Origin: Candidatus Palauibacter rhopaloidicola
Lineage (GTDB): Bacteria; Gemmatimonadota; Gemmatimonadetes; Palauibacterales; Palauibacteraceae
Length of the DNA: 64,000 bases
Reading direction: 5' to 3'
Assembly (NCBI GenBank): GCA_026914155.1
Contig: JAPPGH010000031.1
Coordinates: 124,001 to 188,000, forward strand
In this document: piece after piece, positions 38,696 to 41,968 of the stretch
How the letters are laid out: each line of letters starts with the position of its first letter
Position numbering within the stretch: the stretch's first letter is position 1
Program-made: the position numbers and the translations under genes
The notes under the pieces: model-generated
What the model saw: the letters and a program-made list of their open reading frames with translations, nothing else
The model's database searches: none
Told to the model about the DNA's origin: nothing

Positions 38696-39661
38696 ATGAG
38701 TACAGAAAACGTCGTCATCATTGGCTCGGGCCCCGCCGCGTGGACGGCGGCCATCTATGCGGCCCGGGCGAACCTGAATCCGCTCGTGTTCGAGGGTGCG
38801 GGGAGCCGCACCATGATCCCCGGCGGGCAGCTCATGTTCACAACGGACGTGGAGAATTATCCCGGTTTCCCCGAAGGGGTTAGCGGCATCGACATGATGT
38901 TGGACTTCAAGAAGCAGGCGCTGCGTTTCGACACGCGCGTGTTCACCGAGGACATCGTGGAGGTCGACTTCTCGAGCCGACCCCTCCGCCTGCGCTCGTC
39001 CGGGAAGCAGGAGGTGCTCGCGGAGACCGTGATCGTGGCGACCGGCGCCAACGCGCGCTGGCTCGGCGTGCCGGGCGAGGAGCGGCTCGCGCAGAGCGGC
39101 GGCGGGGTGTCCGCGTGCGCGGTGTGCGACGGCGCCCTGCCCGTCTTCCGGGACCAGGTCCTCGCCGTCGTGGGGGGCGGCGACAGCGCGATGGAGGAAG
39201 CGCTCTACCTCACCAAGTTCGCGAGCGAGGTGCTGCTCATCCACCGGCGCGACGAACTGCGGGCGTCGCAGATCATGCAGGAGCGGGCCTTCGCCAGCGA
39301 CAAGATCCGCTTCCTCTGGAACCGGACCGTGGAGGAGGTGTTCGGGGACGAGGCGATCACCGGCATCCGCCTGCGGGACACGGTGACGGGCGAGGCGTCG
39401 GACGTCGAGGTGGGGGGGATGTTCGTGGCGATCGGCCACATCCCCAACACGGCGTTCCTGCAGGGCCAGGTCGACCTCAAGGAGAACGGCTACGTGGACA
39501 TGCCCACGCCGTGGCGCACGGAGACGAACGTGCCCGGAGTGTTCGCGGCGGGCGACGTCATGGACGACTACTACCGGCAGGCCGTCTCCGCGGCGGGCAC
39601 CGGCTGCATGGCCGCCCTCGACGCCGAACGCTTCCTCGCCCACAACGGCGCCGCCGGCTGA
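38696..39661 (+). CDS. trxB: Thioredoxin-disulfide reductase (NADPH-dependent flavoprotein)
   Basis: 321 residues. The FAD-binding [16 protein letters not shown] (about 10-25), redox-active CAVCDG (about residue 139), NADPH-binding [18 protein letters not shown] and [19 protein letters not shown] near the C-terminus are all in place. It reduces thioredoxin using NADPH in the cytosol. The ATG follows GGAGCG. A strong inverted repeat lies in its promoter region, suggesting specific regulation. It converges on the SSS symporter. Confidence 0.95.
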
Positions 39662-41254: not shown

Positions 41255-41455
41255 TCACGTCATCGCGTCGCGGAGGGTCTGCCTCGCTTCTTCGTGCCGG
41301 CTGGCGGGCACGCGGAGGACTTTTGCGGCCGCCGTCGGGCCCCAGGACACGGGTGCGAACTCCCCTTCGACCCTGAAGGGGATGTCGTCCGCCTCGAGGG
41401 CGAGCCGCGCCGCGAGGAATTCGCTCTCATCCCACGCCTCGAACACGCGGACCAT
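41255..41455 (-). CDS. DUF2007 (putative prokaryotic signal-transducing) small protein
   Basis: 66 residues. MVRVFEAWDESEFLAARLAL and an RVEGEFAPVSWGPT-type centre then VPASRHEEARQTLRDAM match the DUF2007 layout (VxxxxxxxEAxxaxxxLexxgI...VxxxdxexAxxiL). I chose the ATG at 41455 because AAGGAG lies 7 bases upstream; a GTG at 41473 is also open. It sits between osmC and the symporter in a tight minus-strand unit. Function unknown. Confidence 0.75.
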   Translation of the reverse strand: MVRVFEAWDESEFLAARLALEADDIPFRVEGEFAPVSWGPTAAAKVLRVPASRHEEARQTLRDAMT

Positions 41456-41483
41456 GTCCTCGCTCCTTATCACGTCGCCCCCA

Positions 41484-41954
41484 TCATGATGAAGCAGGGA
41501 TCTCTTCGATGTCGGCGGTCCAGGTCACCTCGATCGCGCCCTCCAGCGAGCGGGCGGTGGGGCACTTCGCGCCGTGGCTGGCGAGGGCGCGGTCGACCGT
41601 CTCCCGGGCTTCGGTGGGGATGCGGAGCCGGTAGTGGACGATGATTTCCTCCAGCGTCGGCATACGGTCGCGGAGGCGGTTGATCCCCTCCACTTCGGCG
41701 GCGATGTCGTCGGGGGCCAGGCGGATGCCGCGCACTTCCAGTGCGCCGTTGAGCGTGCCCAGCATTCAGGCTCCGGTCGCGGCCACCTGGTAGTCGACGG
41801 GGAGGGGCAGATCTTTCGCGTCGATCCGGTAGTGGGACTTGATGGGACCGTGGACTCCGAAGTCGATCTCGGTCCCCTCTTCGAGGCGGGCCCGGCGATG
41901 CACGCCTCCGATCTTTTCGAGACGCGCGCGGGCAGTGTAGAACGGTTCGGACAT
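41484..41954 (-). CDS. OsmC-family peroxiredoxin-like protein with in-frame TGA, probably selenocysteine at the first catalytic Cys
   Basis: Read through the TGA at 41766-41768, the product is 156 residues, a normal OsmC length. Residues 1-62 end PLPVDYQVAATGA; the TGA is residue 63; the frame resumes MLGTLNGALEVRGIRLAP. In OsmC the first catalytic Cys is at exactly this place, after a small-residue A-x-G-[AG] turn. The second catalytic Cys is present in HGAKCPTARSLEG (about residue 132). A hairpin with SECIS features follows the TGA. The start has AAGGAG 8 bases upstream. The enzyme would reduce organic hydroperoxides in the cytosol. The alternative is a nonsense mutation or sequencing error splitting the gene. 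Confidence 0.75.
41730..41746 (-). promoter_or_regulatory. Candidate bacterial SECIS hairpin in osmC
   Basis: On the minus strand GCGCAC and GTGCGC form a perfect 6-bp stem around loop TGGAA. The stem starts 19 nt and the loop 25 nt after the TGA, and the loop starts T-G-G. Bacterial SECIS elements need a stem-loop shortly after UGA (loop roughly 16-37 nt away) with a conserved G in the first loop positions; this fits. Confidence 0.65.
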
Positions 41955-41962
41955 GATGTGCT

Positions 41963-41968
41963 CTCCTT
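41963..41968 (-). promoter_or_regulatory. Shine-Dalgarno of osmC
   Basis: AAGGAG (minus strand) lies 8 bases before the ATG at 41954 and fixes that start over the upstream open frame to 42026. No equally good site precedes the ATG at 41765 after the TGA, which argues against the second half being a separate gene. Confidence 0.6.

Follow-up and report, generated by a model that had tools for sequence, protein, structure and literature searches.

Described OsmC-like selenoproteins and Sec-rich families

In most selenoprotein families the ordinary cysteine (Cys) versions are more numerous than those with selenocysteine (Sec). An OsmC-like selenoprotein with the motif UxxT was described, in the text on the Sargasso Sea data, from 3 Sec and 10 Cys sequences (PMC1088965), and the text on the GOS data counts 5 Sec and 161 Cys members (PMC2398784); the first-pass annotation, made from the sequence alone, was thus right in placing such proteins in marine surveys. 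OsmC-like selenoproteins also appear in passages of the reviews PMC9312934 and PMC13188914. Families in which Sec dominates were likewise reported in the GOS text, with Sec versus Cys counts of 427/56 for the SelW-like, 255/21 for the UGSC-containing and 235/110 for the PrdB family (PMC2398784).

The locus presented here lies within a 64-kb stretch of DNA, analysed in its entirety and called the window below, and its host belongs to the Palauibacter genus group within the Gemmatimonadota. Judging from the Sec machinery of the genome and the anatomy of the RNA, the gene, a member of a family concerned with peroxide defence, almost certainly yields an OsmC-superfamily selenoprotein in which Sec would be inserted at UGA codon 63 instead of termination. 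The original proposal that this UGA codes for Sec is supported by the machinery, by relatives that keep the TGA, by the alignment with the structure 1UKK and by a covarying hairpin.

The OsmC gene and its in-frame TGA

The gene is located on the minus strand at 41484..41954 and, translated with read-through, gives a protein of 156 aa with Sec at position 63. The frame opens with ATG at 41954-41952 and runs through 62 codons to the internal TGA (41766..41768), which is followed by 93 codons and the stop TGA at 41486-41484. Re-reading of the minus strand bore out that this single frame is broken only by the TGA at residue 63. The read-through product, which around this residue reads ...PLPVDYQVAATGA-U-MLGTLNGALEVRG..., matches PF02566 with 45.8 bits (gathering threshold 27.5, E 8.6e-12), and the gene has matches in most genomes of its family (29 of 35). 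The Sec context UMLGT carries Gly at +3 and Thr at +4; Gly at +3 is shared by the relatives' Sec contexts that were displayed. A Shine-Dalgarno-like AAGGAG (41963..41968, minus strand) lies 9-14 nt ahead of the first ATG. The claim that such a signal precedes only the first half did not hold: GGAG is also found 6-9 nt ahead of the ATG that abuts the internal TGA.

In profile comparison U63 and C131 are in register with the first and second conserved Cys of Thermus thermophilus OsmC (1UKK). The TGA thus takes the place of OsmC's first catalytic Cys, as had been proposed, and the second catalytic Cys within AKCPTAR, the putative resolving one, is retained (Cys131 codon at 41562..41564, minus strand, in KCPTAR). 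1UKK is the best match among OsmC/Ohr structures, although a weak one, with E 3.4e-6 for a profile of the window protein and its relatives (12 sequences) and 3.3e-5 with alignment A4. Cys131 does not vary in alignments A1, A2 and A4, both catalytic positions are invariant, as Sec or Cys, in A2 and A4, and G33, V34, H35, D54, G66 and T67 are invariant among 41 aligned members. When the window gene was compared with its congeners (11 of the 14 with type A inside the genus), every one of the 11 comparisons gave a lower dN than dS on either side of the TGA; downstream dN/dS reaches about 0.6 (L022), and in some close pairs the downstream changes are few.

Genomic neighbourhood

The neighbours of the OsmC gene in the window are an open frame of 72 aa, an SSF transporter, a DUF885 gene and a thioredoxin reductase. 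The 72-aa frame (41255-41473, minus strand) lies just downstream and has no Pfam or NCBIfam match; the thioredoxin reductase (38696-39661, TIGR01292, 376.6 bits) is encoded on the other strand, 1.8 kb past the end of the OsmC gene. Among 61 type-A loci, several of which are cut by contig ends, the 72-aa frame adjoins the OsmC gene in 6, all close relatives, DUF885 is nearby in 13, mainly inside the genus, and thioredoxin reductase in 7 (one of them weak, 30%), again mainly inside the genus. A conserved operon partner was therefore rejected, since neighbours are kept mainly within the genus and none is conserved; as the arrangement with thioredoxin reductase is mainly genus-limited, no partnership is claimed for it.

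No tRNA and no Rfam match was found within the 64-kb window. A GC3 scan of the window returned 7 sites, of which only 22083 has long frames on both sides; considered as a further selenoprotein site, it proved to be the codon at which a Uma2-family gene naturally ends. The scan missed the known OsmC site and so has no bearing on the absence of other selenoprotein genes.

The candidate SECIS hairpin

A SECIS-like hairpin, GCGCAC-TGGAA-GTGCGC, is located at 41730..41746 (minus strand), its candidacy resting on conservation, covariation and synonymous constraint. Its perfect 6-bp stem, which starts 19 nt after the TGA, and its loop TGGAA are as first described. The rules for bacterial SECIS elements set out in the text of PMC13188914 are a stem of 4-16 bp, a loop of 3-9 nt with G in its first two positions, a distance of 16-37 nt between UGA and loop, and a minimum free energy of at most -7.5 kcal/mol. 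The hairpin of the window agrees with the rules in that text: it has 6 bp, a loop UGGAA with G at position 2, a distance of 25 nt and, for the 17-nt hairpin alone, -9.7 kcal/mol (PMC13188914). The U and A of the loop can pair, leaving GGA. With the window sequence the hairpin is part of the minimum-energy fold when 40 or 54 nt from the UGA are folded, and another pairing is preferred when 45-51 nt are folded whole.

When stretches of 54 nt starting from the UGA were compared, 71 of the 73 distinct Sec sequences allowed all six pairs, and 69 of those 71 have the loop UGGAR; when 74 peptides were recoded at random with the codon usage of the window, the expected share with all six pairs was 5.3% on average. 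The single Cys sequence forms 2 of the 6 pairs, and the hairpin is absent from it. The two Sec sequences without the common stem are both of type B. In L043, L044, L047 and L112, which represent two distinct type-B sequences, GAGCCC-TGGAA-GCCAGA is found in place of the common stem, and their SECIS may pair differently.

Across 62 distinct rows 98.7% of the paired cells can pair, versus 93.9% with partners shuffled, and the covariation score of 0.219 (0.126 when shuffled) was reached in 0 of 500 shuffles. The stem changes are C-G to U-A in 5 rows and A-U to G-C in 18 rows, so that the codons GCA..GTG, GCG..GCG and GTG..GCA go together. Double-changed pairs (188/500) and pair types (500/500) showed no excess over the shuffles. 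Within the genus, in a set of 11 sequences made up of the window's own and 10 of the 14 others, codons with an invariant amino acid vary synonymously at 3 of 15 positions just after the UGA versus 60 of 87 elsewhere (p 8e-4), and at none of the 6 hairpin codons.

TGA at the homologous codon among relatives

The homologous codon is TGA in 136 of 137 aligned rows, which include the window gene twice, as the same gene from two collections, and other duplicates; the distinct Sec loci number 96, 74 of type A and 22 of type B. The aligned stretch is free of any further stop in 125 of the 137 rows, and in the other 12 the additional stop, at codon 153-155, is the natural end. The relatives thus retain the frame together with the TGA, a point that the first-pass annotation had singled out for checking. 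Within the family, matches were found in 29 of 35 genomes and 46 of the 47 matches listed carry TGA; the 47th, at a contig end, covers residues 90-152 alone. The TGA falls in the Sec column in all 30 family matches checked for position. Of the named loci (the best 80 of 109 in the genome collection) all but one, 79 in total, show TGA at this codon; the exception, with TGT, comes from a Syntrophobacteraceae bin. The relatives come from bins of Candidatus Palauibacter and other Gemmatimonadota. The profiles used for these searches have Cys in this column and so give TGA no advantage over a Cys codon.

In a sample of the phylum 115 of 395 genomes match at E 1e-15 or better. Each of the 150 matches listed, from 107 of these 115 genomes, contains one TGA, its position having been checked for the 30 matches fetched as loci; the other 8 genomes fall outside the matches listed. 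The phylum of the Syntrophobacteraceae bin yielded 33 matches in 32 of 345 genomes, 32 of them with TGA (position checked for 25) and one without, and a third phylum, that of a Candidatus Eisenbacteria bin, gave matches in 7 of 47 genomes, with TGA at the site in 7 of 7. The subfamily is therefore present in three phyla with Sec as its usual form, and in the genomes searched it is almost wholly Sec, with a single Cys form (L199). Twenty distant OsmC loci were fetched from the window's own phylum; 13 were alignable, all with Cys. These 13 were added for comparison to a larger set in which 193 aligned loci, duplicates included, comprise 178 Sec and 15 Cys, after 7 of 200 had been dropped for having no match to the clade profile. 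A search of plasmids and viral contigs found no relative.

It is also worth mentioning that some type-A genes (L061, L064, L069, L086, L094 and L095) come from bins whose titles name Acidobacteria, Acidobacteriota or Deltaproteobacteria, which may reflect transfer, or wrong binning or titling.

Sec machinery of the genome and of the phylum

The first-pass annotation had made its reading conditional on a Sec machinery, and the genome holds all of it: tRNA-Sec (79.7 bits; called SeC with anticodon TCA by ARAGORN), SelA (500.7 bits), SelB (369.7 bits) and SelD (369.3 bits). The bin, of 4.1 Mb in 63 contigs, is 95.76% complete with an estimated contamination of 6.11%, and the sel genes lie on contigs other than that of the OsmC gene. 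The SelD gene (L048, G000:C7:90616-91542) itself has one in-frame TGA, in the context SHGAG-U-ACKLG, and is predicted to encode the Sec form of selenophosphate synthetase. Termination at UGA persists alongside this machinery; of 10 window genes inspected for their stop codon, 7 end at UGA, the OsmC gene included.

SelA is present in 16 of the 17 genomes of the genus; across the phylum, a threshold of E 1e-60 gave it in 282 of 395. Genomes that carry the OsmC gene have SelA in 108 of 115 cases and those that do not in 174 of 280, a difference for which the Fisher p of 9e-12 is indicative only, the genomes being related. Six of the seven OsmC-bearing genomes lacking SelA have tRNA-Sec. One genome, G356 (86% complete, 600 contigs), yielded neither SelA at 1e-60 nor tRNA-Sec, and its OsmC codon is not among the matches listed.

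A second gene in the genome, related groups and the Cys form

The genome of the window contains a second OsmC gene, paralogue B (L158, G000:C57:120787-121245), which is 35% identical and has TGA at the same catalytic position as well as a GCGCGC hairpin. For a tree, 79 of the 193 aligned proteins were chosen, among them 11 of the 13 distant Cys proteins that could be aligned, and the Sec column was masked in every row that has Sec. Types A and B, together with group D from the second phylum, form one branch (ABD, support 100/100), within which the Cys protein L199 also falls; by coordinates, L199 and L117 are one gene. A clade of all Sec proteins leaving L199 outside was rejected (p 3e-7), and L199 belongs with ABD, not with the other Cys proteins. 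It is drawn nested inside ABD; this nesting is not significant (p-AU 0.26), and a change from Sec to Cys in L199 is a suggestion. One Syntrophobacteraceae bin, of 7.1 Mb and unknown purity, carries both a Sec copy (L198) and the Cys member L199.

Yet another group, C (L182-L194), found in other genomes of the phylum, is a third group of OsmC Sec candidates, with the motif UTSMT in most members and a hairpin of its own, TCGCGC-TGTAY-GCGCGA. Group C stands apart among Cys proteins, with 100/100 for the group. A joint clade of ABD and C was not rejected (p-AU 0.26), and long branches, of which the program warned, meet near C; for both reasons no claim of two Sec origins is made. Two members of group C score 58.8 and 62.4 bits with NF041052, below its cut-off of 95.

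Alternative readings of the UGA

A TGA is one base away from a Cys codon and the source genome is a bin with an estimated contamination of 6.11%, so that a miscalled Cys codon, or a disabling TGA in a pseudogene, had to be weighed. Base-call error is made implausible by the occurrence of the same TGA in many separate assemblies, and a decayed gene fits neither the lower dN than dS on both sides of the codon in every comparison nor the lack of any other stop ahead of the natural end; this explanation is very improbable. Only slightly less so is the production of two proteins, the first half ending at the UGA and the second restarting, by translational coupling, at the abutting ATG (TGAATG). The window itself invites it, with an ATG directly after the UGA and a GGAG 6-9 nt ahead of that ATG. 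Among the 96 distinct loci, however, the codon after the UGA is ATG in 42 and CTG, CTA or CTC in 54, and ATG with a Shine-Dalgarno-like quartet ahead of it occurs in 3 only, the window among them. The restart was rejected on these counts; its product would be without residue 63, and it would leave the covarying hairpin and the link with SelA unexplained. For reading of the UGA by a general suppressor or an altered genetic code no point in favour was found. Genes of the window, the OsmC gene among them, end in TGA, the association with SelA is strong (its p being indicative for these related genomes), and the site is the catalytic Cys column, all of which make it the most improbable of the explanations considered.

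Another alternative concerns function and is compatible with Sec insertion: the UGA codes for Sec, and the protein is not a peroxidase but an enzyme with a different substrate, perhaps a disulfide or persulfide reductase that depends on the selenol. The weak similarity to OsmC/Ohr structures, a score below the cut-off of the sole NCBIfam OsmC model matched, and the set of residues invariant in the 41 aligned members (G33, V34, H35, D54, G66 and T67) speak for it, whereas retention of both OsmC catalytic positions, as Sec and Cys, speaks against it. We regard it as unlikely, yet deserving more weight than any explanation without Sec.

Proposed Sec insertion and function

As regards the favoured reading, Sec insertion, a ribosome reaching UGA codon 63 in the OsmC mRNA would find the downstream hairpin acting as a SECIS and recruiting SelB with Sec-tRNA, whereupon Sec would be inserted and termination avoided. 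Beyond the designation of an OsmC-type redox enzyme, what follows on function we infer from homology. In the OsmC/Ohr mechanism a peroxidatic Cys reacts with the hydroperoxide, a second Cys resolves the product, and reduction comes from a thioredoxin or lipoyl system. By analogy, the protein is probably a thiol-dependent peroxidase with Sec63 as its peroxidatic residue: Sec63 would attack the hydroperoxide and become a selenenic acid, which Cys131 would resolve as an Se-S bond, itself to be reduced by thioredoxin or a lipoyl-type system.

On the wider question we lean, with some reserve, towards an OsmC lineage that is deep, reaches across at least three phyla, has two paralogues in a single genome and uses Sec by default as its catalytic residue, Cys being secondary and very rare. 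If true, such a lineage would reverse the usual pattern of bacterial thiol oxidoreductases and could escape methods that depend on close Cys homologues. Sec-OsmC genes are also predicted in many Gemmatimonadota genomes, where automatic annotation probably shows a truncated OsmC. The family is small and single-domain, and the Sec protein L198 and the natural Cys protein L199 from one bin would allow a simple test of the benefit of Sec.

Comparison with known systems

No description of a Sec-dominant OsmC family was found in text passages of PMC1088965, PMC2398784, PMC9312934 and PMC13188914. OsmC is not named in the main text of the deep-Sep paper (PMC12013277), titles and opening parts of abstracts on selenoproteins or selenocysteine in Gemmatimonads (including PMC8938466 and PMC8318568) contain nothing on a Sec-OsmC, and neither selenium proteins nor OsmC gave a text match in PMC10469786, the paper on Palauibacterales. 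A well-supported OsmC subfamily with Sec as the rule thus appears to be undescribed. According to its text, the Sargasso Sea method required of a candidate at least 2 Cys homologues and more than half TGA/Cys pairs (PMC1088965); a nearly Cys-free family could fail this filter, and distant Cys OsmC proteins might rescue it.

The OsmC-like selenoprotein described from the Sargasso Sea and from GOS (COG1765 YhfA / PF02566) shares with the window protein the OsmC superfamily, the Sec residue, a bacterial SECIS and an origin in marine bacteria. Its published motif is UxxT, whereas the window reads U-M-L-G-T, and Cys forms are in the majority in it, whereas Sec prevails in the subfamily of the window; the two are set apart here by the published descriptions and could be identical. 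NCBIfam NF041052 (OsmC_like_Se, OsmC-related (seleno)protein) covers the same superfamily, and its name allows for either Sec or Cys. With 21.1 bits the window protein falls far short of the curated cut-off of 95 bits, and none of 298 genomes of the phylum has a match over that cut-off. The OsmC/Ohr thiol peroxidases (1UKK, T. thermophilus OsmC; 1NYE and 1QWI, OsmC; Ohr) have their two catalytic positions in register with those of the window protein, as seen with 1UKK, but the latter has Sec for the first Cys and is distant in sequence. In the SelW-like, UGSC-containing and PrdB families of the GOS text Sec exceeds Cys, as it does here, and their counts give a Sec-rich family its precedent, although none of them is an OsmC family. 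As OsmC-like selenoproteins have been in the literature since 2005 and a few families dominated by Sec are on record as well, the protein is not new in kind; its subfamily differs from the OsmC-like selenoproteins of the Sargasso Sea and GOS texts in the prevalence of Sec and in lacking the motif UxxT.
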